DNA from: Bacteroidia bacterium
Lineage (GTDB): Bacteria; Bacteroidota; Bacteroidia; Bacteroidales; Azobacteroidaceae
Assembly: GCA_025999255.1 (NCBI GenBank)
Contig: BNXB01000016.1
Span: forward strand, 1-24,185
Direction: 5' to 3'
Length of the DNA stretch: 24,185 nucleotides
Shown: positions 1 through 22,593 of the stretch, piece by piece
Layout of the letters: the number at the start of each line of letters is the position of its first letter
Position numbering within the stretch: the stretch's first letter is position 1
The notes under the pieces: model-generated
Databases searched by the model: none
The model's input: only the letters and a program-made list of their open reading frames with translations
Told to the model about the DNA's origin: nothing
Program-made: the position numbers and the translations under genes

Positions 1-52
1 GAATCTAACGAAATCTAATAATACACTAACAATTTTTACTCGATAATAGATG

Positions 53-217
53 TTAATCTCTATAGTTTGGAAAACTGAAGTGAGTAAACTCTAACATATT
101 GAGACATGTACTTCTTCGGGGGCTTACTCTATTTTGCAGATATTGGTTTAATGGTTCTGCTGCCATCGAAGTTTTGTTCCCTTTGAAGAAAAGTCTTTCG
201 TGTGCTTGTGCCGTCAT
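53..217 (-). CDS. Truncated or frameshifted first gene of a fourth cassette, 54 aa
   Basis: A short minus-strand ORF starts 33 bases after the outer box of attC3, which is where a cassette gene is expected. It begins MTAQAHERLFFKGN and continues SMAAEPLNQYLQNR. From memory this start resembles a family of small uncharacterised Bacteroidota proteins of roughly 130-150 residues that begin in the same way. After residue 30 the resemblance stops and the frame ends at a TAA at 53-55, so the gene appears frameshifted or truncated, or simply different. It could also be a chance ORF. No function can be given. Confidence 0.4.
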   Translation of the reverse strand: MTAQAHERLFFKGNKTSMAAEPLNQYLQNRVSPRRSTCLNMLEFTHFSFPNYRD

Positions 218-250
218 ATTTCTTTGCTTGTTAGTTCGTCTTATGCTTGC

Positions 251-507
251 CTGTAACGCTTCGCAGGCTTTGCGAAGGGTTGTGCTTTCGCAAAACCTGT
301 AGATGTACGAAGTCCCGTAGGGCTTCGTACATTCGCAAAGCCTACGAAGCGATGTAACGAAAGCCCGAAGGGATTTCGTTACATCGATCGGGTGTATGTT
401 CAGTTGCCAGATTCATAGCTTTTGCTGTCGCACATTGCTAAGATTGCAAAAAGCTATAACTACAGTAAACCTACCTCGCAGGCAATTGAATATACACCTT
501 GTTAGGT
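251..507 (-). other. attC3: integron-like cassette recombination site carrying a 128-bp insert
   Basis: Read on the minus strand, the site opens with ACCTAAC (501-507, matching RYYYAAC), nine bases past the stop of the lipoprotein gene. It closes with GTTACAG (251-257, a poor match to GTTRRRY). The inner arms at 388-407 and 480-499 are an imperfect inverted repeat: GGTGTATGTTCAGTTGCC on one side against GGTGTATATTCAATTGCC from the other. The side next to the closing box has extra unpaired bases, as attC sites do. Without the 128-bp element at 258-385 the site is 129 bp, matching its siblings at 126 and 127 bp. Confidence 0.7.
258..385. repeat. 128-bp multi-hairpin element, copy A
   Basis: This is one of three near-identical 128-bp sequences (others at 1738-1865 and 7116-7243); it differs from each of the others at four positions. 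It lies between the closing box TAAC (plus strand) of attC3 and the inner arm, exactly at the crossover position of the site. It holds no ORF of its own. One of the four substitutions breaks a base pair in the long outer stem, so this is probably the oldest copy. Confidence 0.85.
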
Positions 508-515
508 GCTGGGCA

Positions 516-1649
516 TTAATATTTTACCACATCAATAGGGTATCCTGTTCGAACAAATTGATTGATAATGACTTGAATATTTTGTCCTCCAAACAACTCC
601 TTATCTTTTTGAATTAAGCCATAAAAAACATCGCACCAATCAATCATATTCTGTTGTTCTGCTTCCGCCGATTGATAAAACTCCATACGTTTGTTTAAAT
701 AGTTGTTCAAGTTTAAAATAGTTTGTGCCACTAATTTGTCGGTTTTGTCCTGTCCGATTTGTTCCCTTATTCGCCATAACGTACTTGTCAAAACCATACC
801 GCCTCTATGATTGTCATAAATATTGTCCAATATATAATCATTATAGGAAACATAGCAGGCTGATAAATATTTTGAAATATTGCTTCTCGGATTCTGGATT
901 TTTGTCGGAAAGGATTCTTCCATAAGCCGGAGTGTGTTTCTGAGTGTAAATGAACTGTCTAATGGATATTTGTACAGTTGTGACGCATCTCTTATCAATT
1001 TTTGGGGTAAGAAGTCTTCCCCTACAACAGAAGAATTATTGAACGATACGGTAAAATATTCAAGTAATCCCATGTGAATAACAGACAATCCATTGAATTT
1101 AATGCCCAATTCTCCCTCTATATACCAAAAAGCACGGTGTCCTATTTCGTGGGAAAACAACGACGGTGACGGATTAGAATTTTTCTCAAAAATGTATGAA
1201 TTGGGATGTGTGAACAGCGGAATATCGCCTATAATAACATCAATGGTTTTGAATTCTTTTTGTGTATTAAAATCTATTTTGTTGTCGAACAAATGATTGT
1301 AGTATTCTATTACTTTAATAATATTATAGATGGTATAAGCAGTATAATATTCGGGCGAATATGATTTTATTTTTTTTGAAAAATTCAAAACATAAGGCGT
1401 TGTATGATGTTCATCGCGGTCAGGATTCATATCGGGATAGGAAATTGAATCCAAATAGCTGAATTTTATGGTATCAATATACGGAGAATGTATATTTCCT
1501 TCTTTGTCGATAAAGTCGAGCAATATGTTTTCATTGCATATCTTACCTTCTTTAAGGTAGTAAATTTTCAAATCTCGTGAGGATGGTTTACAACCGACAA
1601 TCAACAATAGGGTGATTATCAGATATAACACTAAACTCTTGTTTTTCAT
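516..1649 (-). CDS. Lipoprotein with a gluzincin-like HExxH zinc metallopeptidase motif (cassette 3)
   Basis: The 377-residue product starts with a lipoprotein signal peptide: a short charged start, a hydrophobic run, and Cys20 in LLIVGC. It should therefore be lipid-anchored outside the inner membrane. HEIGH at residues 167-171 is a zinc-peptidase HExxH motif. Glu197 in GLLEYF, 26 residues later, is a plausible third zinc ligand, as in gluzincins (established for that clan, inferred here). Peptidase activity and substrate are unknown; I do not recognise the family by name. The gene is flanked by attC2 upstream and attC3 downstream, with the attC3 box nine bases past its stop. No TAnnTTTG promoter is visible in its 80-base leader, so it probably depends on read-through or on something in the 128-bp element just upstream. 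Confidence 0.75.
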   Translation of the reverse strand: MKNKSLVLYLIITLLLIVGCKPSSRDLKIYYLKEGKICNENILLDFIDKEGNIHSPYIDTIKFSYLDSISYPDMNPDRDEHHTTPYVLNFSKKIKSYSPEYYTAYTIYNIIKVIEYYNHLFDNKIDFNTQKEFKTIDVIIGDIPLFTHPNSYIFEKNSNPSPSLFSHEIGHRAFWYIEGELGIKFNGLSVIHMGLLEYFTVSFNNSSVVGEDFLPQKLIRDASQLYKYPLDSSFTLRNTLRLMEESFPTKIQNPRSNISKYLSACYVSYNDYILDNIYDNHRGGMVLTSTLWRIREQIGQDKTDKLVAQTILNLNNYLNKRMEFYQSAEAEQQNMIDWCDVFYGLIQKDKELFGGQNIQVIINQFVRTGYPIDVVKY

Positions 1650-1730
1650 TTTATTTCTTCTTCTTGTTATGTTTTAGATATATGGATTTTCTCTATTGCT
1701 TCGCTACAATGTATGCCCTTCCCGCCTTGC

Positions 1731-1984
1731 ACCTAACGCTTCGCAGGCTTTGCGAAGGGTTTTGCTTTCGCAAAACCTGCAGATGTACGAAGTCCCGTAG
1801 GGCTTCGTACATTCGCAAAGCCTGCGAAGCGATGTAACGAAAGCCCAAAGGGATTTCGTTACATCGTTTTGGCGGCTTGGCGCAGTGGCGGGCTTACTGA
1901 GGCTCGCGCGGGAACGAAACTTTCAAAATCGCACTGTCATTTGTGCGGGCTGCACCCGCCATCGTGCTAAACCGCTTGTTATGT
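1731..1984 (-). other. attC2: integron-like cassette recombination site carrying a 128-bp insert
   Basis: On the minus strand the site opens with ACATAAC (1978-1984), 11 bases past the stop of the restriction-modification gene, and closes with GTTAGGT (1731-1737, a full match to GTTRRRY). The arms at 1870-1892 and 1953-1975 form an imperfect inverted repeat: GGCGGCTTGGCGCAGTGGCG against AGCGGTTTAGCACGATGGCG, read from the two sides. Taking out the 128-bp element rejoins TAAC to GTTTTGGCGGCTT, which is nearly the uninterrupted attC1 sequence (TAACGTGTTGGCGGCTT). The site is 126 bp without the insert. Confidence 0.75.
1738..1865. repeat. 128-bp multi-hairpin element, copy B
   Basis: This second copy is inserted directly beside the GTTAGGT box of attC2. 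It differs from copy C at two positions and from copy A at four, while the surrounding attC arms share almost nothing with the other sites. That contrast indicates the element arrived independently of the cassettes. It lies 89 bases upstream of the lipoprotein start codon. Confidence 0.9.
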
Positions 1985-1995
1985 GTTCGTTGTTT

Positions 1996-3162
1996 TTAAA
2001 ATTCACTTAATTCAAAAAGTTTATTTCTAAATTCTTCAATCCTTTTAAAAACGGAACTTCCAGAGTCGCTCAATGCAACTATAGGAGAACTAATTTCTAA
2101 TCTTTCAAGTCTTGATTTAATTGCCATTCTACCATAGAAAAATCTCCATTTCTGAGTATTGATTTGTGTAGCAAACCAAAGTAATTCATTAAAAGACATT
2201 TTGTACTGAGGTATTAATACACGAACAGAACTACCTCCATTTCCACGAGCCATAAATCTCCACGGTTGAACATATGCCTGCCCAAATGCTGTAACCGTAA
2301 TTGCACCATCCTCAAAAATTTCATTATCATCATCTGCTACTAATCTAATAATACTATTTATTGTATCTCCACTGGAAATATAGGGGCAATTCCCCTCTGA
2401 ATAATTCTTCTCTCCGGAAGATTTTCCATTTATGATATGAAAATAATCTGTTAGAATTCCATTAGTACCATAAGACAATTCATTTTCTGTATTAAAATAT
2501 ATTGGAAAGTCTTCCAATACCTCATCGGCAAGTTCTGGGATACTTGAAACGGCTTGAAACAGAGAAAGAATTAATTTTTGTTCATGTTTCTTCAATTCTA
2601 CTTCTGTAATTGCAGGTTGTGACAACCATTGTTGTGGGCTAAATTCTTGACCATCTATAATTTGAGACCCCAAAATAGTAGTAGCTAATTCAGAATCAAA
2701 CTCATTTCCATGTCTAAATGTCTCAAAAACTTCTAATATATTATTCAATTGAGAACCTTCACATTCGACTCTTTTGCCTTTCAGCTTTTCAAACCCATCA
2801 TTCCATATTCTCCCCATAAATATTTTATCATTTTCAGATTGAGGAATATGTGCTTTTGCTATAAAAATTGAGGTCGGAGCTGCTGTAGGATAGAATAAGT
2901 CTTCAGGTAAACTAATGACGGCTAAAACAGAGTGATTTAGAACTAATTTTTGTCTCCAAATTTTATTTTCATCATCGGCAAAGATACCAGCTTTAACAAC
3001 AACTGCAATCAATCCGCCTGGTTCTAATGCATCTAATGCTAAATCAATAAAATCTCTTTCCGGTTCCTCATCTTGAGAAAACGGAGGATTAAGAAAAGCT
3101 CTTGTAAACTTCCCTTCTATGTTATTCCTATTATCAAAACAGCTTCCATTTTCTATATGACT
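1996..3162 (-). pseudogene. 3' part of IS-split single-chain restriction-modification enzyme: catalytic NPPF, rest of methylase and target recognition domain
   Basis: This is the downstream half of the gene whose start is at 6049. Read from 3162 it repeats 24 codons shared with the other half and then continues into NPPF, the catalytic motif IV of N6-adenine DNA methyltransferases. Next come the rest of the methylase fold (about to residue 280 of the part) and a C-terminal region resembling a type I specificity (HsdS-like) target recognition domain. The longest ORF with a start uses TTG at 3012, past NPPF, so a protein made from it would lack the catalytic motif. Removing the insertion sequence and one 72-bp repeat joins the halves in frame into 765 residues. 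The stop lies 11 bases before the attC2 box. Confidence 0.85.
3091..3162. repeat. 72-bp direct repeat, left copy (target duplication of the insertion sequence)
   Basis: This is identical over 72 bp to 4847-4918, and the two copies exactly border the insertion sequence. Both encode the same 24 residues of the restriction-modification protein, from SHIENGSCF to GKFTRAFL. That makes this a target duplication made on insertion rather than a repeat of the gene. Confidence 0.95.
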
Positions 3163-4846
3163 CCTGACTTCGTCAATGCGCCACCCAAATTAATTCATTC
3201 CATCCGTTGGTCAAACAGCGGCTGTATGCTTCGGTGCTTGTCGGAAAGAAAGAGTGTCTTTATGTAGAGCAATCCGTTTTCCGGCATCCTTACTCTGATT
3301 GTCGTAACAGTCTTGGCTACATCCAACACCTTACCTATGCTTAATGGGATATTCTTTACCTTGATAAGCCTCTCTAATTCCTTGTATATCTTGTAGGCAA
3401 CAAAGCATATACAAACATGAGCTTCAATCCTGCGTTCCGTAAAGTGGAACATCGGACGCATTTCCAACGTGCCCTTTGAAACGCGAAAGGCGCGTTCCAC
3501 AACCCATAATTCACGGTATTCGGATATGACTTTGTCCGCATCCAAGTCGGTGTTGGTAATGTATCCTTTCAGACCGTCCCAAAGACTGTCTTCCTTTATC
3601 TTCTGCTCGCTGATAAGAACTTCCACATCTTTGCTGATTTCAAGAAACTTATTGTAACCGCGCCTGTTGACCTGTTGCTTGGTCAATCTCCCTGTTTTAT
3701 ATGCCTTGCGCAGACGGTCAATGCCTCGCTCCCTGTTATAAGCATCTTTTCCTGCTCTCGCGGCAGAGTAGTTTAGAATAAGACGTTCTCCATTATTGCG
3801 TGTGTATTCGTAGTTAAGACCGTCTTCTTTGGGCTGTTCAAGTATCCACTTCTTGACCTTGCTGTTCTCACTTTTGATTCGTGCCCCGATGATATATTTG
3901 TAGCCTGCGTTACGAAGCAACTCCACGTTTGTACTGTTCATCAGTCCCGAGTCGGCTACCACAACAAAGTCCCTCCCAAGCGAGAAACGCTGTTTGAAGT
4001 CGTCTATCATTGGTATCATCGTGTAGCCTTCATACTGGCTCCCGTTGAATAACGAATAGGACAGCGGATAGCCTCCTTCGCTGACCAGCAGACCAAGTAC
4101 AACTTGAGATTCAGCCGTCTTGCCGTCCTTGGAAAAGCCCGGTTTTCGCAAGTCGTCTGTTTTGGCGGATTCGAAATACAGAGTGGTTACGTCATAAAAC
4201 ATCAAGCCAATCTTGCCTCCAAGCATTTTGCGGGTATGTTCTACGCTGATCTGTTGCACAAGCTCCTGCTGCGTGTTGTAGAGTTTGTCCATGTAGCGAT
4301 AAACGTGGTTAAGGTCAACATCCTCGTCGTAGTACGACTTCAGATATTCCGTGGTGGCAAGTTTGCTTGCAGGCTGGGAAACTCTTGCTGTTACCAGATG
4401 CCGTAATATCTCATCGGGAATACGGTTGAAGCCAATGTCATCATAGATGCGGTCAAGCAGAAGCTGCGTACCGTTAATCAGTACCGTATCCGTGTTGCTG
4501 ATTACACGCTCTGTCTCTTCACGCTCACGCCCCTTGACATCATTGAAGTCGAGCTCCTGTTGACCGGCGTAGGCGTGAATCCATTTCTGGGCATCATTGC
4601 ACAATGTCTCGGCTTCATCTTCCGTATTGGCAGTACCCAAGCACTTAACCTCCTTATATTTCCCCAAGGTCTTGCTTACGACAACGACACTTATAGTACC
4701 CGAACGATTCTTTTTCTTGCGCACATACATGACACAAAAGTACACTTTCTTTCGCTTGCGCCACCCTGCGCCACCATATTTTATTAGCTATCTCGTTGAT
4801 TACCAACAATGCCATCACGTGGCAAAGAAAAAGTGATGAAGTCAGG
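3163..4846 (-). mobile_element. IS1634-type (IS4 superfamily) insertion sequence, 1684 bp
   Basis: The ends are 13-bp inverted repeats, CCTGACTTCGTCA at 3163-3175 and TGATGAAGTCAGG at 4834-4846, with one mismatch. One transposase gene fills the element. It is flanked by a 72-bp direct duplication. IS1634 of Mycoplasma mycoides is known for long, variable-length target duplications, so the size fits the family. The element sits inside the restriction-modification cassette gene, in the same orientation as that gene, and appears intact. Confidence 0.93.
3195..4730 (-). CDS. IS1634-type transposase
   Basis: The DDE transposase of the insertion sequence cuts and joins its ends. I prefer the ATG at 4730 (start MYVRKKKNRSGTISV, 511 aa), which matches the usual start of relatives; an in-frame ATG five codons earlier at 4745 would give 516 aa. 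Visible catalytic regions are FYDVTTLYFE (first Asp), VVADSGLMNS (second Asp), and YRELWVVERAFRVSKGTLE, where the Glu and the Lys seven residues later match the E-(6)-K part of the IS4-type signature. The length is normal and no frame break is seen, so the element may still be active. Confidence 0.92.
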   Translation of the reverse strand: MYVRKKKNRSGTISVVVVSKTLGKYKEVKCLGTANTEDEAETLCNDAQKWIHAYAGQQELDFNDVKGREREETERVISNTDTVLINGTQLLLDRIYDDIGFNRIPDEILRHLVTARVSQPASKLATTEYLKSYYDEDVDLNHVYRYMDKLYNTQQELVQQISVEHTRKMLGGKIGLMFYDVTTLYFESAKTDDLRKPGFSKDGKTAESQVVLGLLVSEGGYPLSYSLFNGSQYEGYTMIPMIDDFKQRFSLGRDFVVVADSGLMNSTNVELLRNAGYKYIIGARIKSENSKVKKWILEQPKEDGLNYEYTRNNGERLILNYSAARAGKDAYNRERGIDRLRKAYKTGRLTKQQVNRRGYNKFLEISKDVEVLISEQKIKEDSLWDGLKGYITNTDLDADKVISEYRELWVVERAFRVSKGTLEMRPMFHFTERRIEAHVCICFVAYKIYKELERLIKVKNIPLSIGKVLDVAKTVTTIRVRMPENGLLYIKTLFLSDKHRSIQPLFDQRME

Positions 4847-6049
4847 AAGAAAAGCTCTTGTAAACTTCCCTTCTATGTTATTCCTATTATCAAAACAGCT
4901 TCCATTTTCTATATGACTTTTTCCATCACCTCTAAAAAACATATTTAGAGTTGCCAATGCCCAAACTGTTGGATTTGTATCAAATCCATATAGTGATTGT
5001 TTTATTTTTGAAATAGCTTTTGAACCTTTGGCTTTAGACATCATTTCGTCAAAAGCAGCGACAAGAAAACCTCCTGTCCCACTCGCAATATCAATTACTC
5101 TGTCAGAAAGTCTTGCTCCAATTAAACTGACACAAAATTTCGTAATATGTCTGGGTGTGAAAACAATTCCAAGAGCATTATTATCATAGCCATAACGCAA
5201 AAAGGCTTCATAAAACAAACCAAGGAAATCAGTATCAGACTGTAATACAGACCTAATGTTTAATCTTTTTAGAATTGAAATTATTCGTTGAATCTTGGAA
5301 CTAAGTCGGTCAAAATCTGCACCGGTTAAATGTAAAGATTCTTGTAGACGGACCTTTGTGTCTGATCGCAAGTCAATACTTTCTTCGATAGCCTCTTTTA
5401 CTAAACTATTGAGAGAGTCGAGTTCTCTACCTGTTGTTGTATCAACTTCGCCCTGATAAATCGCTAATGTTATTGCACCAATAACCTTTGGGCGTAGTGG
5501 TGCTTCTATTTTTGCACATCGCAAAATTTTAGACAATTCAATAGCTGCATCAATAAATTCAGAATTGCTGGGAACAGATACATTAGTAGTCCCGTCATCG
5601 GCTAAAATGGCTAATTCTATTTCTTTTTTTGACGGAATAGTTGAAATTTCATATCCATTTGATTTAAGTTCTTTCCATGTGCTACCTTGAAGGTACCTTA
5701 CTTTTACAAAAAAACCATTATCTTCCTCTCCTGCTACTCCGACAGCAATTCTAATACAATATTTTTTTGTTTTATTGATAGAGTTACAATATCCAATAGC
5801 TTGGTTTATGGCTTCATCTATTTTTTTAGCTTCATTTTTAGCTTCTATTACCATTATTGGCTCTCCTTTGAAACAAGCTAAAAAATCAGGTTTATCAAGC
5901 CCTAATCCAATGTCTGGAAAAGAATTTATTATTTCTTGTTCTTCAACAAAATCTCCACCTTTTGAAATATGCGAAACATTCCAAAGCCTTTTTTCACTTT
6001 GAATTCTAATAAAATATCTTGTTCTACTTTCTGCTCTTTTTTTCCCCAT
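4784..6049 (-). pseudogene. 5' part of IS-split single-chain restriction-modification enzyme: PD-(D/E)xK nuclease and SAM-binding half of methylase (cassette 2)
   Basis: This is the start of a type IIG-like enzyme in which nuclease, methylase and specificity domains share one chain. Residues 54-71 hold a PD-x13-EAK nuclease motif (KPDFLACF then VIEAKN) of the type I HsdR N-terminal kind. FTPRHITKF (297-305) and DIASGTGGF (320-328) are the conserved YTPR-like element and SAM-binding motif I of HsdM-type N6-adenine methylases. True sequence ends at residue 401; the last 20 codons are read from the insertion sequence to a stop at 4784. Without motif IV (NPPF, in the other half) it cannot methylate. 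If only this half is made, an unaccompanied nuclease domain would be produced; whether it is active is unknown. Confidence 0.85.
4847..4918. repeat. 72-bp direct repeat, right copy
   Basis: This is the partner of 3091-3162, identical in all 72 positions. It belongs to the upstream part of the split gene. Identity of both copies suggests a recent insertion and gives a substrate for homologous recombination that would delete the element cleanly. Confidence 0.95.
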
Positions 6050-6075
6050 ATTTAATTACCTTCATTTATAAAACT

Positions 6076-6083
6076 CAAAGTTA
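6076..6083 (-). promoter_or_regulatory. Possible -7 box of a cassette-borne promoter for the restriction-modification gene
   Basis: The minus strand reads TAACTTTG, a full TAnnTTTG match, 26 bases upstream of the start codon. No TTTG is seen at the expected upstream distance, so this is tentative. A promoter inside the cassette would make its expression independent of array position. Confidence 0.35.
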
Positions 6084-6166
6084 CAATTTTCAATTTATAT
6101 TTCGGTTGATACTTCCATTTTTTTCTTTTCTCTCTTCTCTGTTCCGTTGCACTGTTCCACAATGAC

Positions 6167-6293
6167 ACATAACGTGTTGGCGGCTTTATGCTGTGCTTGC
6201 TTTCACTAATGTTTCTGCGGGCGATAAACTTGCAAATTTTCACTAACGCTTGAGCGGGCTACGGCAAGCATAGCATAAAACCGCTCGTTAGGC
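6167..6293 (-). other. attC1: uninterrupted integron-like cassette recombination site, 127 bp
   Basis: This is the clearest site because it has no insert. On the minus strand it opens with GCCTAAC (6287-6293, a full RYYYAAC match) and closes with GTTATGT (6167-6173). The arms at 6179-6199 and 6264-6285 pair over about 20 bases: GCGGCTTTATGCTGTGCTTG from one side against GCGGTTTTATGCTATGCTTG from the other. Three extra bases (TTG) sit on the closing-box side, like the extrahelical bases that give attC its strand choice. The central loop is about 62 bases. The stop codon of the upstream FRG gene lies inside the opening box. Confidence 0.8.
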
Positions 6294-7061
6294 GGTCGTG
6301 CTTTTTTGTTCGTCTGAATGCTTAGCAAACCTCCATTCTAAATTTCTGCAAAAGCCATCAATGTCAGGAAATATTGTCGCATAATTTATTCCTAACATCG
6401 AAAGTTGTTTTCTTATTTTAGCAAAGTCTTTTCCTTTTATCAATAGTTTTGTCAATTTAGATTTGTAGTTTTTGTTATTTTCAAATCTAATCATTTTATT
6501 GTCTTTAAGGATTTTATGAACGGTAAACACGCCTGCCTGTGCTGAAATTCTTCTACTCACAACTGCAGACCGAAAGATTTTAGTTATCTTATTATCCAAT
6601 GGGTCAGCCGTAGTCGTATCTGTTCTAAAATCTTCAACGTCAGCACTTAAAATCCAGAGTACTCCATTTTCGAGTTCCCCGTTTTCGTCTTTCAGTGGTG
6701 GTCTATCCACTGCAAACCATAATGCAATTAACGCACTATAAGACCAGTCTAAAAGTCTTGTTGGCAATCCGTGGTGCTGTGCTAATGCCAATAAATCCCA
6801 GTTATTTTCGGGTTTAAATTCTGTCAATGGAAGAATGCCCCTTCTAAATTCTTCAAGCATTAATTTTTCGGTTTTGATAATATCTGTCTCAATTCTCAAG
6901 TTAAGTCTTCCGATTTTTGGTATTAGTGGCTTGTCAATTCCCTGTCCTCGAAAAAGCAATTCTGCATTTTTCTCTTTTTTCTCATTTAATTCTTTAAAAC
7001 GTTCTACATACTCTACAAAAGTCGAAACGTTTTCTATAAAATCAGGTTTTAAAATTGTCAT
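6288..7061 (-). CDS. FRG-domain protein (cassette 1)
   Basis: The 257-residue product has the FRG domain signature: LLFRGQG (residues about 35-41), then LALAQHHGLPTRLLDWS and ALIALWFAVD (about 91-119). FRG proteins are common in accessory regions and some are linked to phage defence or toxin-like roles; the biochemical activity is not settled. No signal peptide or membrane segment is seen, so it should be cytoplasmic. It is the first gene after the attI-like site, the position best placed for expression from the array promoter. Its TAA stop is formed by the GCCTAAC box of attC1, a tight fit typical of gene cassettes. No promoter of its own is visible between the attI-like box and its start. 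Confidence 0.85.
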   Translation of the reverse strand: MTILKPDFIENVSTFVEYVERFKELNEKKEKNAELLFRGQGIDKPLIPKIGRLNLRIETDIIKTEKLMLEEFRRGILPLTEFKPENNWDLLALAQHHGLPTRLLDWSYSALIALWFAVDRPPLKDENGELENGVLWILSADVEDFRTDTTTADPLDNKITKIFRSAVVSRRISAQAGVFTVHKILKDNKMIRFENNKNYKSKLTKLLIKGKDFAKIRKQLSMLGINYATIFPDIDGFCRNLEWRFAKHSDEQKSTTA

Positions 7062-7108
7062 ATTCTTTTATTTAAATTGTTTATGTTTACCTGCTTCAGC
7101 CGCATGTC

Positions 7109-7256
7109 GCCTAACGCTTCGCAGGCTTTGCGAAGGGTTTTGCTTTCGCAAAACCTGCAGATGTACGAAGTCCCGTAGGGCTTCGTACATTCGCAAAGCC
7201 TGCGAAGCGATGTAACGAAAGCCCGAAGGAATTTCGTTACATCTCATAAATATACG
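7109..7256 (-). other. attI-like site at the head of the array
   Basis: On the minus strand GTTAGGC (7109-7115), a full GTTRRRY match, sits between the recombinase promoter region and the first cassette gene. No long inverted-repeat partner of the attC kind is found beside it, which fits an attI rather than an attC. The 128-bp element copy C lies directly beside the box, so the original upstream part of the site may be the AT-rich sequence at 7244-7256, or the element itself may now act as the site. The assignment rests on position and the box only. Confidence 0.5.
7116..7243. repeat. 128-bp multi-hairpin element, copy C
   Basis: This copy shows the fold best. A 20-bp outer stem pairs 7115-7134 with 7190-7209 perfectly. 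Inside it are two hairpins: 7137-7143 with 7148-7154 (7 bp) and 7161-7170 with 7181-7190 (10 bp), giving a three-way junction. A fourth hairpin follows, pairing 7209-7220 with 7232-7243 (12 bp), and contains TAACG on one arm and CGTTA on the other, echoing attC boxes. There are no terminal inverted repeats and no target duplication of the usual transposon kind. Confidence 0.9.
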
Positions 7257-7288
7257 CAAGAATACAACTTTATTTTCAAATAGCCAAA
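7257..7288 (-). promoter_or_regulatory. Candidate promoter reading into the cassette array
   Basis: The minus strand has TTTG (7285-7288), a 20-base spacer, and TATTCTTG (7257-7264), one mismatch from TAnnTTTG. Transcription would start near 7250 and run through the attI-like box into cassette 1, matching the place and direction of an integron cassette promoter. Confidence 0.4.
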
Positions 7289-7356
7289 CATTTTAAAAAA
7301 AAACATCAACATTTTTACTGTCAGAACTTTAAAAGAAATTTTTTTATTGCGGATTA

Positions 7357-7387
7357 TTTGTATTTTTGAAAAATATGCGTAATTTTG
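7357..7387 (+). promoter_or_regulatory. Promoter of the tyrosine recombinase gene
   Basis: TTTG (7357-7360), a 19-base spacer and TAATTTTG (7380-7387) form a full Bacteroides-type promoter 40 bases upstream of the recombinase start. It is divergent from the candidate array promoter, with about 70 bases between them. No obvious operator palindrome was seen between the two. Confidence 0.75.
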
Positions 7388-7427
7388 CAACTGAATAAAT
7401 CATATTAACAAATATACAAAATACGCA

Positions 7428-8507
7428 ATGAGTTTTGAACTAAAAAATTATACGTTTGCATTGGGAACACACAAAGACAAAAATGTGATCTGGGTACGGT
7501 TTCCGAATGATACTGTTTTGCGAAATGAACTTAAACAGCGTTTTCCGTCAGTTAGTTTTAGTTGGACAAATAAGTGTTGGTATCTTACTGATACAAAACA
7601 TTTTAGAGAGTGTGTCGGTTTGGATGTGAAAACTGTGTTGGAGAGCATTCAAATGGGCGACATTTCTGAAATCAACCGCCTTGCGCTTAAACGTATGCAC
7701 GAAACATTACTGCTGAAATTTTACAGCGAAAACACGCTCAAAACCTACTGCGGCGAGTTTGCTCAACTGCTGCAAATTATTAAAAATGTGAATGTTGACA
7801 CGCTTACGCCCGAACGGTTGCGGTCGTATTTTCTTTATTGTACGAAAAAGTTGAAACTGTCGGAAAACACATTGCATAGCCGTATGAATGCCATTAAATT
7901 CTACTTTGAACAGGTTTTGAAATGCGAAAAAATGTTTTTTGACGAAATACCTCGACCGAAAAAGCAATCACTATTGCCCAAAGTATTGAGCAAGCAGGAA
8001 GTTGTGAGGCTTTTTGCACAGGTTGAAAACATTAAACACCAGATAATATTGAAGTTATGCTACGGAATGGGCTTGCGGGTAAGCGAGATTGTTGCGTTGA
8101 AAATCACGGATATTGACAGCGACCGTATGCTGGTGCGTATCGAAAACTCCAAAGGTAAAAAAGACCGCTATACGCCTCTGCCGCAAAGTATTTTAGACGA
8201 TTTGCACCACTATTACGAAGAATATCAGCCAAAAGAATATCTTTTTGAGGGACAATATGGCGGACAATACAGCATTCGCAGCGTACAGGCGGTATTCAAA
8301 ACGGCAATGAAGAAGGCAAAAATTAAAAAAACAATTGGTATTCACGGCTTGCGGCACAGTTACGCTACGCATCTTTTAGAAGCAGGCACAGATATGGTCT
8401 TTATTCAAAAACTGCTTGGACACAAAGACGTGAAAACTACGCAAATTTATGCCAAAGTTACGGATAAACAGCTGAGTAGAGTAAAAAGCCCGTTAGACAG
8501 TTTGTAA
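7428..8507 (+). CDS. Tyrosine recombinase, candidate integrase of the cassette array
   Basis: This 359-residue tyrosine recombinase would cut and rejoin DNA at the array sites. Catalytic residues are all present: Arg217 (GMGLRVSE), Lys242 (SKGKKDR), His306 and Arg309 (HGLRH), His332 (LLGHKD) and Tyr341 (TTQIYAKV). Residues 90-170 form the SAM-like N-terminal binding domain. Residues 1-65 are an extra N-terminal domain (IWVRFP to FSWTNKCWYL) absent from classical IntI or Xer proteins but, from memory, common in Bacteroidota relatives. The tail SRVKSPLDSL recalls IntI tails. The spacing between Lys242 and His306 is 64 residues, as in Xer proteins, so the extra helix that marks classical IntI is missing. 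It is divergent from the cassettes, like intI. A role in cassette exchange is inferred from context. Confidence 0.85.
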   Translation: MSFELKNYTFALGTHKDKNVIWVRFPNDTVLRNELKQRFPSVSFSWTNKCWYLTDTKHFRECVGLDVKTVLESIQMGDISEINRLALKRMHETLLLKFYSENTLKTYCGEFAQLLQIIKNVNVDTLTPERLRSYFLYCTKKLKLSENTLHSRMNAIKFYFEQVLKCEKMFFDEIPRPKKQSLLPKVLSKQEVVRLFAQVENIKHQIILKLCYGMGLRVSEIVALKITDIDSDRMLVRIENSKGKKDRYTPLPQSILDDLHHYYEEYQPKEYLFEGQYGGQYSIRSVQAVFKTAMKKAKIKKTIGIHGLRHSYATHLLEAGTDMVFIQKLLGHKDVKTTQIYAKVTDKQLSRVKSPLDSL

Positions 8508-8557
8508 CACGAAAAAAGCGCTAAACTATTGATTTACCCTTTTTTATTTTCTTTCAA

Positions 8558-9574
8558 TTATGTCCAACCCTGGGCCTGTAATTTTATTTCGGTTCCATCG
8601 CGCGCAATCAGATTTGCGCCCATAGATTCATCACAAACATAACCGATTACATGAACTCCCTCCATATTTTCTATTTTTTCATGTAATTCAAGAGGTAATG
8701 TAAACAACAATTCATAATCCTCACCTCCATTCAAGGCCACTGTAGAAACATTCATATTGAATTGTTCGGCCATCACAGCCGTTTGGTAATCAATTGGAAT
8801 ACGATCTTCATAGAGCAGGCATCCTACTTTACTTTCATGACAGATATGCAAAAGTTCGGACGCCAATCCGTCGGAAATATCAATCATAGAGGTCGGTACA
8901 ATCCCTTCCCTGGACAAGGTTTCAAGAATATCTTTCCGGGCTTCCGGTTTCAATTGCCGTTCCAACAAGTATTCCTTCCCTGCAAAATCAGGATTAAAAT
9001 CCGGTTCTCCTTTAAACACCGTCTTTTCTCTCTCCAACAATTGCAAACCCATGTATGCAGCCCCTAAATCACCGGAAACACAGAGTAAATCGGTATTCTT
9101 AGCCCCTTTCCGATAGACTGTTTTTCCTTTTTCTCCCTCTCCGATACAAGTAATACTGATACACAAACCGGTAAGTGAAGAAGAGGTATCTCCTCCTACA
9201 ATATCCACTCCGTAAATTTCACATGCCAATTTCAAACCTTCGTAAAATTCTTCCAAATCTTCAACGGAAAAACGTTTGGAAATACCTAATGAAACCGTAA
9301 TTTGCTTCGGTTGACCGTTCATTGCATAAATATCCGAGAAATTAATCACTGCGGCTTTATATCCCAAGTGTTTCAGAGGGAAATAGGTCAGATCGAAATG
9401 AATACCTTCCAATAATAAATCCGTAGTCATTAAGACTTCCCTTCCCGAATAATCCAATACGGCAGCATCATCCCCAATCCCGACAATACTACTTTGATTA
9501 CTAAGCCTGATATTTTCAGTCAAACGCCTGATCAATCCAAACTCTCCCAATAACGATATTTCTGTTTTTCCCAT
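8558..9574 (-). CDS. thiL: Thiamine-monophosphate kinase
   Basis: ThiL phosphorylates thiamine monophosphate to thiamine pyrophosphate with ATP, the last step of cofactor synthesis in the cytoplasm. The 338-residue protein is full length for the family. It shows GIGDDAA (residues 32-38), TTDLLLEGIHF (50-60), VGGDTSSS (about 124-131) and DISDGLASEL (about 223-232), the metal and nucleotide binding elements of the PurM/ThiL fold. It follows punA on the same strand after 61 bases that contain an inverted repeat. Its 3' end faces the 3' end of the recombinase gene, so this is the chromosomal border of the array. Confidence 0.95.
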   Translation of the reverse strand: MGKTEISLLGEFGLIRRLTENIRLSNQSSIVGIGDDAAVLDYSGREVLMTTDLLLEGIHFDLTYFPLKHLGYKAAVINFSDIYAMNGQPKQITVSLGISKRFSVEDLEEFYEGLKLACEIYGVDIVGGDTSSSLTGLCISITCIGEGEKGKTVYRKGAKNTDLLCVSGDLGAAYMGLQLLEREKTVFKGEPDFNPDFAGKEYLLERQLKPEARKDILETLSREGIVPTSMIDISDGLASELLHICHESKVGCLLYEDRIPIDYQTAVMAEQFNMNVSTVALNGGEDYELLFTLPLELHEKIENMEGVHVIGYVCDESMGANLIARDGTEIKLQAQGWT

Positions 9575-12958: not shown

Positions 12959-15900
12959 ATGAAAAATGTTTACACTAAAATGAAAAAATTAATTTTCGGG
13001 ATAACGATTGTTATCTTTTTATGTACTTTTTCGGTACAAGTATCGGCCACACCGGCAGAGAATATTTCTGTGACACAACAGAAAAAGACGGTTTCGGGCA
13101 AAGTAGTAGATAATAAGGGAGAATCTATTCCCGGCGTATCCGTTGTAGAAAAAGAAAATCCCCGAAACGGGACAATTTCAGACATCGACGGTAATTTCTC
13201 AATCGAAGCAGGTGATAACAGCACGCTGGTATTGAGGTTTATAGGCTTCAAGTCTGTCGAAATAGCGGTTTCTAACGTAAACGGCAGTGCTATTACGATG
13301 ACGGAAGATTTGTTAAATCTTGATGAAGTGGTTGTTACCGGTTACACGAGCCAAAAGAAAGCCGACCTGACAGGCGCGGTGTCTGTTGTCAAAATCGACC
13401 AGATCCGGTCGAGTACCTCCGGAGGAGCCATGCGTGCCGCACAAGGAAAAGTTGCAGGTATGGCCGTTACGACCAACGGTTCTCCCAATCCATGGGCAAC
13501 GGTTCGGATTCGCGGCGAAGGCACTTTGAACAACAATGATCCGTTGTATATTATCGACGGAACTCCTACCGTCCGTTCGGTTGAGGAACTTGCCTACATG
13601 GATATCGAATCCATCCAGGTATTGAAAGACGCCTCTTCTGCGTCAATTTACGGAGCACGAGCTGCTAACGGCGTTATCATCATTACTACCCGTAAAGGAA
13701 AGAAAGGAACGATAGTCGATTTCAAGGCTTCACATACGGTAACCAGTAGCGCTAAACCTTACGAACTGATGAACACGGAGCAACGAGGGATTGCTCAGTA
13801 CTGGGCTATCAAAAACGATAATCCGAATGCAAATCCGAATACGGTAGGAATCGGACAATTATATCAATATCAGGATCATAAAGACGCTAATGGCAATTTT
13901 GTACTCGATAACGTCACCTGGCGGGAATGGTTGGATCCTAATGAACAAACGATGCGTTCGGCCGATACCGACTGGCAGAAGGAAATCCTGCGTACGGGAA
14001 ACGTTCAGCAATATAATGTCACCCTTTCGACAGGAAACGACAACGGGAACGCGCTCTTTTCCACAGAATATTATGACAATCAGGGTACAATCAAAGGAAG
14101 TTATTTCAAACGCTTGAACGCACGTGTCAATACCGACTACTCGTTGTTGGACGGACGTGTGAAAATAGGCGAAAACTTTACCGTTTCCAAGCTGCGTCAA
14201 AGCGTGAACATCGGCGACGGTAATTTAGGCAATTGTAAGAGCCTTATGTCTATTGTTCCCGTACATACGGCAGATGGCATTGGTTGGGGCGGGCCTATCG
14301 GAGGTATGAGCGACCGGCAAAATCCGGTGCGCCTGATCGAAGATAATCTTCAGAATTATCAGGACAACCTGCGCATGTTCGGTAATGCATTTGTCAACGT
14401 CGAAGTCATGAAAGGCCTTACTTTCCGTTCTTCACTCGGAGTGGATTTTACAGGACGCTGGCGCAGAACAATGGATTTAACCTATAAGTCCGGCTTTTTG
14501 AGCGAATCAAGGAATAAAGTATATGAAGAGGCAAACTATGATGTGGACTGGAACAACAGTAATGTGCTTCAATACGTTTTTGATTTGGGGCAAAACAACT
14601 TCGATATCATGCTTGGTCAAGAAACAATCTCCCATACATACAATTACTTATGGGGTAGCCGCAGGGTCTTTGCTTTGGAAACGACCGATTACATGCAACT
14701 TGATGCGGGCGAAGAAGATAAAGACAACGGAGGCAATTCCGCAAAGTTTACTATGCTATCTTGGTTCGGTAAATTCAACTACAATTATGCAGGACGCTAT
14801 CTTGCTTCGCTTACATTGCGGCGCGACGCTTCTTCCGTATTCGGTTCGAATAACCGGTGGGCAACTTTTCCGGCATTTTCCCTGGGCTGGGGACTGAATA
14901 AAGAATCGTTCCTGAAAAATGCGCTTTCGAGATTTTCGATGTTAAAACTTCGTTATGGATGGGGGCAGAACGGAAACTCGAGAATCGACGAATATGCCGC
15001 ATACCAGATGTATCAAGCTCTCTACGACCAAAACGGCATCAATGATTGGAACTGGGGTACGGCTTATGACTTTACCGGTCAGGGCGGCCAACTGCCGTCG
15101 GGTTATCACCGGACACAAAGGGCAAATCCCAACTTGAAATGGGAAACGACTTCACAACACAATTTCGGTCTTGATTTCGGTATCTTCGATTCCAAATTAA
15201 GCGGATCATTCGACTATTATCTGAAATATACGCGCGACATCCTGATGAAACCAGGAACCGTAGCAACCGTCGGCGAAGGCGGAATGATGTGGCTGAACGG
15301 AGCCGACATTGACAATAAAGGTTTTGAACTGACACTTAACTATAACGATAAATTCGGGCCGGTAGGATTTGAAATAAACGGCGTATTTTCACACAATCAG
15401 CAGACAGTCGTACACGTACCTGAAGACGTTATTAATAATTTCGCCGGAAACGGGAAGGACCAGAACATATTGGGACGTCCCCGCGCTTCCTTGTATGGCT
15501 ATGTAGCGGACGGACTTTTTCAAAGCCAGCAGGAAGTAGAAGCGCATGCCCAACAAGTAGGCGCAGCGCCGGGCCGCATACGATATAAAGACTTGAATAG
15601 CGACGGAAAAATCAACGATGAAGACCGTACTTGGATTGGCGTCCAGAATCCGGACCTGGAATATGGAATCACTATTGGTATGAATTGGAAAAACTTCGAC
15701 TTGAATGTCTTTCTCAACGGAGTATTGGGAAAAGACTTGAATGTCGGCGGCTGGAAAACATGGACAGACATCTATGCGCTCGGAACGGTTGGAGAGAACT
15801 ACGGGACAAGGCTTTTGGATGCATGGACTCCGACTCATACGAATACAACGATCCCGGCATTGTCGGTAAACAATTACAACGACGAAGGGAGATTCTCCAC

Positions 15901-22531: not shown

Positions 22532-22593
22532 TGTTCTGAAATAGGTTGACAGGTTATGAATATATTCATAACCTGTCAACCTATTTCAGAACA
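22532..22593. terminator. Perfect 62-bp palindrome, bidirectional terminator
   Basis: The sequence is its own reverse complement over all 62 bases, centred between 22562 and 22563, giving a stem of up to about 29 bp with a minimal loop. It lies between the convergent kinase and M16 genes and would stop transcription from both sides. The stem is far longer than a normal terminator, and no strong T-tract follows. Confidence 0.75.

Follow-up and report, generated by a model that had tools for sequence, protein, structure and literature searches.

What is a 128-bp hairpin-rich sequence doing at the crossover points of a bacterial integron? The question is raised by a 24,185-nucleotide (nt) stretch of DNA, hereafter the window, from a Bacteroidia bacterium of the family Azobacteroidaceae (GenBank assembly GCA_025999255.1, contig BNXB01000016.1, positions 1 to 24,185; our contig C16 of a fragmented assembly, 53.6% complete), in which a tyrosine recombinase gene on the plus strand diverges from three minus-strand cassettes in an integron-like arrangement. 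This element is, in our view, probably a gene-less integron cassette of minimal size, in which about 17 nt close an attC-like recombination site, and its mobility would be due to integrases that lack the I2 insertion. An earlier, sequence-only reading of the window had suggested a gene-less mini-cassette or a parasite of attC sites; junctions, cassette arrays and proximity to integrases make this the best-supported explanation, with the amendment that one of the three sites in the window is attI.

The window copies lie on the minus strand at 258-385 (A), 1738-1865 (B, the reference) and 7116-7243 (C), matched by model R1 with 146, 152 and 150 bits, respectively. Each is 128 bp long, and A and C are 97% and 98% identical to B, in keeping with the roughly 97% first estimated. 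In cassette orientation they read G^ATGTAACGAAATCCCTTYGGGCTTTCGTTACATCG...CGAAGCG^TT, with one change at the centre of C, the terminal TT belonging to the next cassette. Copy A sits within the attC of cassette 3 (251-507, minus strand; 257 bp) upstream of a cassette starting G^TTACAGG; copy B within the attC of cassette 2 (1731-1984, minus strand; 254 bp) before cassette 3 (G^TTAGGTGC); and copy C before cassette 1 (G^TTAGGCGAC), so that the minus strand continues past the three copies as TTACAG, TTAGGT and TTAGGC. Minus A and B the two sites measure 129 and 126 bp by their box positions, as had been claimed, against 127 bp for the uninterrupted attC1 (6167-6293, minus strand, GCCTAAC...GTTATGT; folded as 6165-6291), which represents the empty form. 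The bounding of all three copies by the G^TT crossover was likewise borne out; that they interrupt attC arms holds for A and B and fails for C, which occupies the attI junction between the recombinase gene (7428-8507) and the first cassette, encoding an FRG protein. There the attI side with the probable cassette promoter region (7244-7427, minus strand; by eye) adjoins copy C with GCGTATATTTATGA. As also predicted, the window copies show no terminal inverted repeat, no target duplication except the shared G, and no overlapping reading frames other than short mechanical ones.

Four further copies occur elsewhere in the genome, at C64 4935-5062, C94 2171-2298, C91 1-125 (at a contig edge) and C64 243-321 (a deletion derivative). 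With both flanks present, six of the seven copies can be placed at attC or attI junctions; the C91 copy retains its left (attC) flank only. A search for attC arms, chosen to avoid finding sites by way of the element and using a pattern that misses the diverged attC of copy A, gave eight matches, seven of them true attC; the eighth, on C106, looks like coding DNA and was rejected. The element is present at five of the seven (once as the derivative), and two, attC1 and a site on C51, are empty. On contig C64 (locus L014), the hairpin 1 centre of the copy at 4935-5062 is inverted relative to the other copies of the genome, as if flipped, and the shortened copy at 243-321, still at the crossover, is explained by deletion between internal GATGTA repeats.

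Using models and a pattern scan, we located the element in 15 genomes of Bacteroidota, including Avrilella, Myroides, Sphingobacterium, Tannerella, Lentimicrobium and others. A near-sequence search of the host's family returned only its own genome (1/45); searches of plasmids and phages gave no match, nor did two exact-pattern scans of viral contigs, which diverged copies would escape. BLAST against 393 genomes of the order detected one diverged relative, in Lentimicrobium, to which a covariance model built from six sequences added Tannerella and genome G262, with 5/393 genomes matching at E <= 1e-3, counting the host's own and a rejected match in G220. The weak BLAST matches in G220 and G204, and the R1 match in G220, lack the outer stem or lie within coding DNA (by eye). 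Of 34 stretches returned by the pattern scan of a species-genome collection, 15 contain the element; those from Treponema, Rhodobacteraceae and others, 19 in all, have a different fold (partly by eye), and none passed a filter that had initially missed one true element (L054), later recovered. A second model found the element in 11 of 12 chosen genomes, the 11 already known carriers, and none in the twelfth, G043; in draws of genomes it matched 2/395 of the phylum and 4/395 of the class, the host's own being in both. The draws overlap; the large ones were run with stricter filters and few candidates scored per genome, which makes the rates lower bounds. Between lineages pairwise identity can be as low as about 54%; for a 67-nt form in G1119 it is 37-46%. 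Among 29 tabulated copies not cut by an edge, 23 measure 124-129 nt, the rest being 67, 79, 141-144 (G262) and 150 nt. The shortest of these (L125 1501-1567) is a mini form consisting of hairpin 1 and a simple outer stem followed by G^TT.

For the junctions we tabulated 32 copies, with ends set by hand from model matches; in the 15 genomes the right flank could be read at 31 sites, the C91 copy being omitted and the insertion common to SJ593 and Chitinophagales counted once. Of these 31 sites, 28 have G^TT on the right. The exceptions are the insertion in Chitinophagales that SJ593 shares (G^GT) and two copies with decayed-looking ends, in Myroides sp. and S. alimentarium. No duplication beyond the shared G was seen by eye in the flank pairs. 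Copies away from crossover sites, variable flanks and target duplications, which the sequence-only reading had named as evidence that would count against it, were looked for, and the outcome did not refute that reading. At 17 of the 28 G^TT sites the start of the next cassette is repeated, reverse-complemented, within 6 kb downstream (chance of an 8-mer at most about 9%), and several of the remaining 11 have short flanks; in Lentimicrobium the recurrence lies at 14784/17454 of a longer stretch. Such recurrence of a cassette start is the mark of a true cassette. Many copies lie in cassette arrays or adjoin an integrase, a proportion that outside the host's own genome is biased towards the element, these genomes having been found through it. 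Avrilella dinanensis UR159 carries six near-identical copies in one array, the first 127 bp from the recombinase reading frame; the cassettes between copies 2-3 and 4-5 have element-free junctions (by eye), which, together with the empty sites of the host genome and of G043, disposes of the idea that every junction is occupied. A minority of copies, in G262, in Tannerella, in Chitinophagales/SJ593 and one in Avrilella, lie outside recognised arrays. A seventh Avrilella copy, about 460 kb away from the array, is inside an OmpA-like gene whose halves match PF00691, one at profile positions 44-98 with 52 bits and the other at 2-42 with 21 bits (under the cut-off of 27.2), the break falling between positions 42 and 44 with frame 0 on both sides. 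The copies in G392 and G262, taken at first to lie outside integrons, in several cases show attI-like left flanks (CGTATATTTGTGT); no cognate integrase was found beside them.

The elaborate single-strand fold attributed to the element was confirmed by DNA folding. Copy B folds with -58.4 (plus strand) and -56.4 (minus strand) kcal/mol (z -15.3 and -14.8), and none of 200 shuffles did as well. All five full copies of the genome that were folded (A, B, C and those on C64 and C94, leaving out C91) share a two-domain fold, and the shortened C64 copy folds as three separate hairpins. Hairpin 1 (1831-1865 in B, minus strand; 351-385 in A; 7209-7243 in C) has arms GATGTAACGAAA/TTTCGTTACATC, the analogues of R' and R'', and the centre AAATCCCTTYGGGCTTT; an outer stem around two hairpins (1738-1830 in B, minus strand) corresponds to an attC-like stem with a variable tip. 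Both domains are supported by covariation, hairpin 1 by helix 1 and the outer stem by helices 2-4. Two-sided change is seen, across 13 distinct sequences, at 39 of the 54 stem pairs (8 of the 15 in helix 1), and 94.7% of cells are paired, compared with 69.8% in shuffles and 29.9-43.0% in slid-partner controls, in an alignment that was fitted to the model and favours the structure. A first model alignment (A4), contaminated by opposite-strand matches, was discarded. G-T pairs make up 9 of 643 standard pairs (1.4%); RNA helices usually have several-fold more G-U wobble pairs. Such scarcity is expected if the pairing is selected or corrected in DNA and not in RNA, which appears to be the case. 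Circular and linear folds agreed for all six sequences examined in both forms.

The recombinase of the window (7428-8507, plus strand; 359 amino acids) is of integron/XerA type by profile and structure-sequence matches, with Phage_integrase and SAM-like domains and an N-terminal extension. Like IntI and XerA it is encoded divergently beside attI and has a C-terminal SPLD, and its best match among solved structures is 2a3v, VchIntIA, the integron integrase of V. cholerae (125 bits). It differs from these enzymes in scoring under both NCBIfam cut-offs and in having no counterpart of 2a3v residues 200-247, the region that we take to contain I2, and so departs from canonical IntI in both the I2 insertion and the TIGR02249 cut-off. 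I2 is described as a domain of about 20 residues that accommodates the extrahelical bases of attC (PMC4792948). Nine other recombinases scored 164-222 bits on the integron model, two of them exceeding the NF040815 XerA/integron cut-off. In five genomes the element lies 100-185 bp from such a gene, upstream in the host's own, Avrilella, Myroides sp. and Sphingobacterium N143 and downstream (3') in SJ593. A recombinase at E <= 1e-40 is present in 13 of the 15 element genomes and in 93 of 296 genomes of a phylum draw (Fisher p 2e-5; lineages not independent), and 11 recombinase loci from that draw (L127-L137) contain no element. A related integron in G043 (L024, contig C89), with an integrase 66% identical, attI and attC sites of about 130 bp, likewise carries none. 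Integrase, attI and cassettes with complementary starts and ends, which together define an integron platform, were recognised (partly by eye) in the host's own array, G043 and Avrilella.

From these observations we infer a cycle in which the integrase is the likeliest agent of mobilisation. The element lies where a gene-less cassette would, between the G and TT of cassette junctions or attI, and its own R'' is complementary to its own R', which in a circle would give a paired attC, as covariation in helix 1 and the six circular folds indicate. A single-stranded circle would then form one dumbbell, with a centre of about AAATCCCTTCGGGCTTT, R''/R' arms of 9-12 bp, a stem of 14-18 bp and two small end hairpins. 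Opened at the R'/stem boundary (G^), the dumbbell would yield the order found in the linear element, first hairpin 1, next the outer stem and last the G^TT of the target, and hairpin 1 would be what any cassette is expected to look like once its gene has shrunk to 17 nt. A cognate integrase lacking I2 would insert the circle at attI or attC and, on rare occasions, at a G^TT in the chromosome, and later cassettes entering at attI would leave elements dispersed through the array. In this proposed cycle the existence of a circle, which enzyme acts and which way the element moves are inferred, as is the view that it is a passenger and not a useful part.

Several observations weigh against such a cycle. 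The crossover triplet AAC, the one conserved sequence of attC sites according to PMC4792948, is found in six of ten lineage groups (Sphingobacterium, SJ593/Chitinophagales, Tannerella, Lentimicrobium, G1080 and G1119) and missing in four: the own/G837 and G262 groups have ATC, Avrilella/M. indicus has TAC, and Myroides sp. looks decayed. Full GTTRRRY/RYYYAAC arms occur in three groups only, as GTTGAGC/GCTCAAC in Sphingobacterium and SJ593/Chitinophagales and as GTTGGGT/ACCCAAC in Tannerella; the host's lineage has GATGTAAC and Avrilella GTAGCGAGG. Integrase target sites are given as GWTMW or GNT in a review (PMC4618277), with which G^AT is compatible and the G^TA of Avrilella incompatible. In six sequences the arm-stem spacer and the first 14-18 bp of the stem are fully paired, unlike a classical attC. 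For the window recombinase the integron integrase model TIGR02249 gives 202 bits (cut-off 265) and XerA NF040815 gives 208 (cut-off 220), the former doing no better than the latter, and the XerC-like structure 4a8e is a close second to 2a3v at 122 bits. No close integrase was found in M. indicus or G262, two of the element genomes, and in seven others the element is absent from the stretch fetched around the best integrase match (L071, L075, L076, L077, L138-L140; S. alimentarium's L079 excluded). No copy in opposite orientation was seen, though a symmetric site might insert either way, nor was any circle or empty/filled pair of strains.

The missing bulges can be set against what one study (PMC2727003) reports for IntI1 acting on sites of the V. 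cholerae repeat (VCR): loss of extrahelical bases lowers attI entry about 6-fold, their removal from both sites abolishes attC x attC recombination, and pairing of the spacer as well lowers attI entry 8.5e4-fold. Either, then, the element is a poor substrate by the standards of IntI1, or different rules apply to its I2-less integrase. Since bulge-free sites still enter attI and hardly exit with IntI1, the element may, by analogy, be a passenger that travels almost exclusively inwards and so builds up in arrays. The host attC arms of the own and Avrilella arrays (window 6167-6293; L048, L052, L057) seemingly also lack single extrahelical bases (by eye), matching integrases without I2.

Could the element instead be mobile by other means? 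A hairpin transposable element, either a miniature inverted-repeat transposable element (MITE) or one of IS200/IS605 type, whose unrelated transposase happens to target G^TT at integron junctions by chance, we consider unlikely. Like MITEs, repetitive extragenic palindromes and bacterial interspersed mosaic elements (REP/BIME) and IS200/IS605-type elements, which are short, non-coding, hairpin-rich and multicopy, it occurs as near-identical copies within a genome; its lack of terminal inverted repeats and target duplication, its single-strand type of fold, the copy within a coding gene and those outside recognised arrays would all suit such an origin. It differs from them in that its boundary is the integron crossover, attI is often the target, several lineages have R-box arms and no transposase was noticed, as no parent transposon was, though no search for one was made. 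Neither the terminal inverted repeats nor the target duplication of a parent transposon that define a MITE were found, and the hairpins extend to the very ends, whereas IS200/IS605 elements have subterminal spacing before theirs. IS1111-attC elements and group IIC-attC introns, which also target attC, carry their own enzyme and exceed 1 kb; the element is unlike them in enzyme, size and boundaries.

Alternatively, the element might be retained for a function as structured RNA, a leader or insulator: at attI it would form the 5' end of cassette transcripts, to which it could lend stability or protection. Promoter positions give this some appeal: read with the -7 box consensus, the element begins 2-4 nt past a TATATTTG-like box in Avrilella copy 1, Myroides sp., Tannerella and two G262 copies, copy C of the window begins 3 nt past TATATTTA (by eye), and the element family has conserved loop sequences. 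The box is 16-25 nt off in Sphingobacterium N143, S. alimentarium and the third G262 copy and was not found in SJ593; many copies lie inside arrays and one in a coding gene; the few G-U pairs contrast with the wobble intermediates that an RNA would show; and with the element in 2/395 phylum genomes and such a recombinase in 93/296, most such integrons are seemingly without it. No Rfam match was obtained for window 1-8600 at E <= 1, which leaves a riboswitch or other known RNA without support from that database. A leader function is improbable. Hardly credible is the notion that nothing was inserted and the sequence is an extended attI or attC domain belonging to the normal site: it occupies five of the seven attC sites recognised by arm pattern in the host genome, but attC1 and the C51 site are empty, the G043 integron does without it, and the Avrilella copy interrupts an OmpA-like gene.

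The element resembles a classical attC in its R''/R' boxes, folded single strand, G^TT junction and variable tip, and departs from it in stems folded without bulge or spacer and in a non-AAC triplet in four of ten lineage groups. As a cassette it would be the smallest natural one known to us. Gene-less cassettes are on record from Vibrionaceae (PMC11014356) and an oral metagenome (PMC6557892); like the element, they have no gene and lie at cassette junctions of an integron array. The Vibrionaceae cassettes tested there measure 491-666 bp, with attC sites of 101-127 bp and promoter activity said to be prevalent (PMC11014356), compared with which the element is far shorter, almost all recombination site, and one dispersed family of conserved fold. 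We found no description of a dispersed, fold-conserved minimal cassette in the open-access literature searched, which included parts of PMC3053210 and PMC8618304. More tentatively, and perhaps against the odds, the elements may constitute a family of integron parasites in several classes of Bacteroidota, whose body is the recombination site alone and whose host integrons combine integrases without the I2 helix with bulge-free attC sites. If so, a conserved element that is almost purely recombination site would define a parasite family living on the integron reaction itself. Natural sites seemingly without extrahelical bases or spacer, paired with I2-less integrases, would also make integron strand choice and direction directly testable, a question that PMC2727003 addresses with engineered sites; and Bacteroidota integrons of this kind may escape annotation built around I2 and canonical attC.

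The minus-strand cassettes themselves are assorted in content. Reading frames and domain matches identify the cassette 1 gene (6288-7061) as encoding an FRG domain protein, cassette 2 (1996-6049) as a DNA N6-methyltransferase-like gene split by an IS1634-family insertion sequence, and the cassette 3 gene (516-1649) as encoding a protein of 377 amino acids with no Pfam or NCBIfam match at E <= 0.001. The IS1634-family transposase gene lies within the methyltransferase cassette (window 3091-4918), and the insertion sequence is flanked by a perfect 72-bp direct repeat (3091-3162, 4847-4918) that we read as a long target duplication, long duplications being typical of IS1634. At a distance from the integron, a perfect 31-bp palindrome without spacer (window 22532-22593) lies between two convergent reading frames and is probably a terminator.

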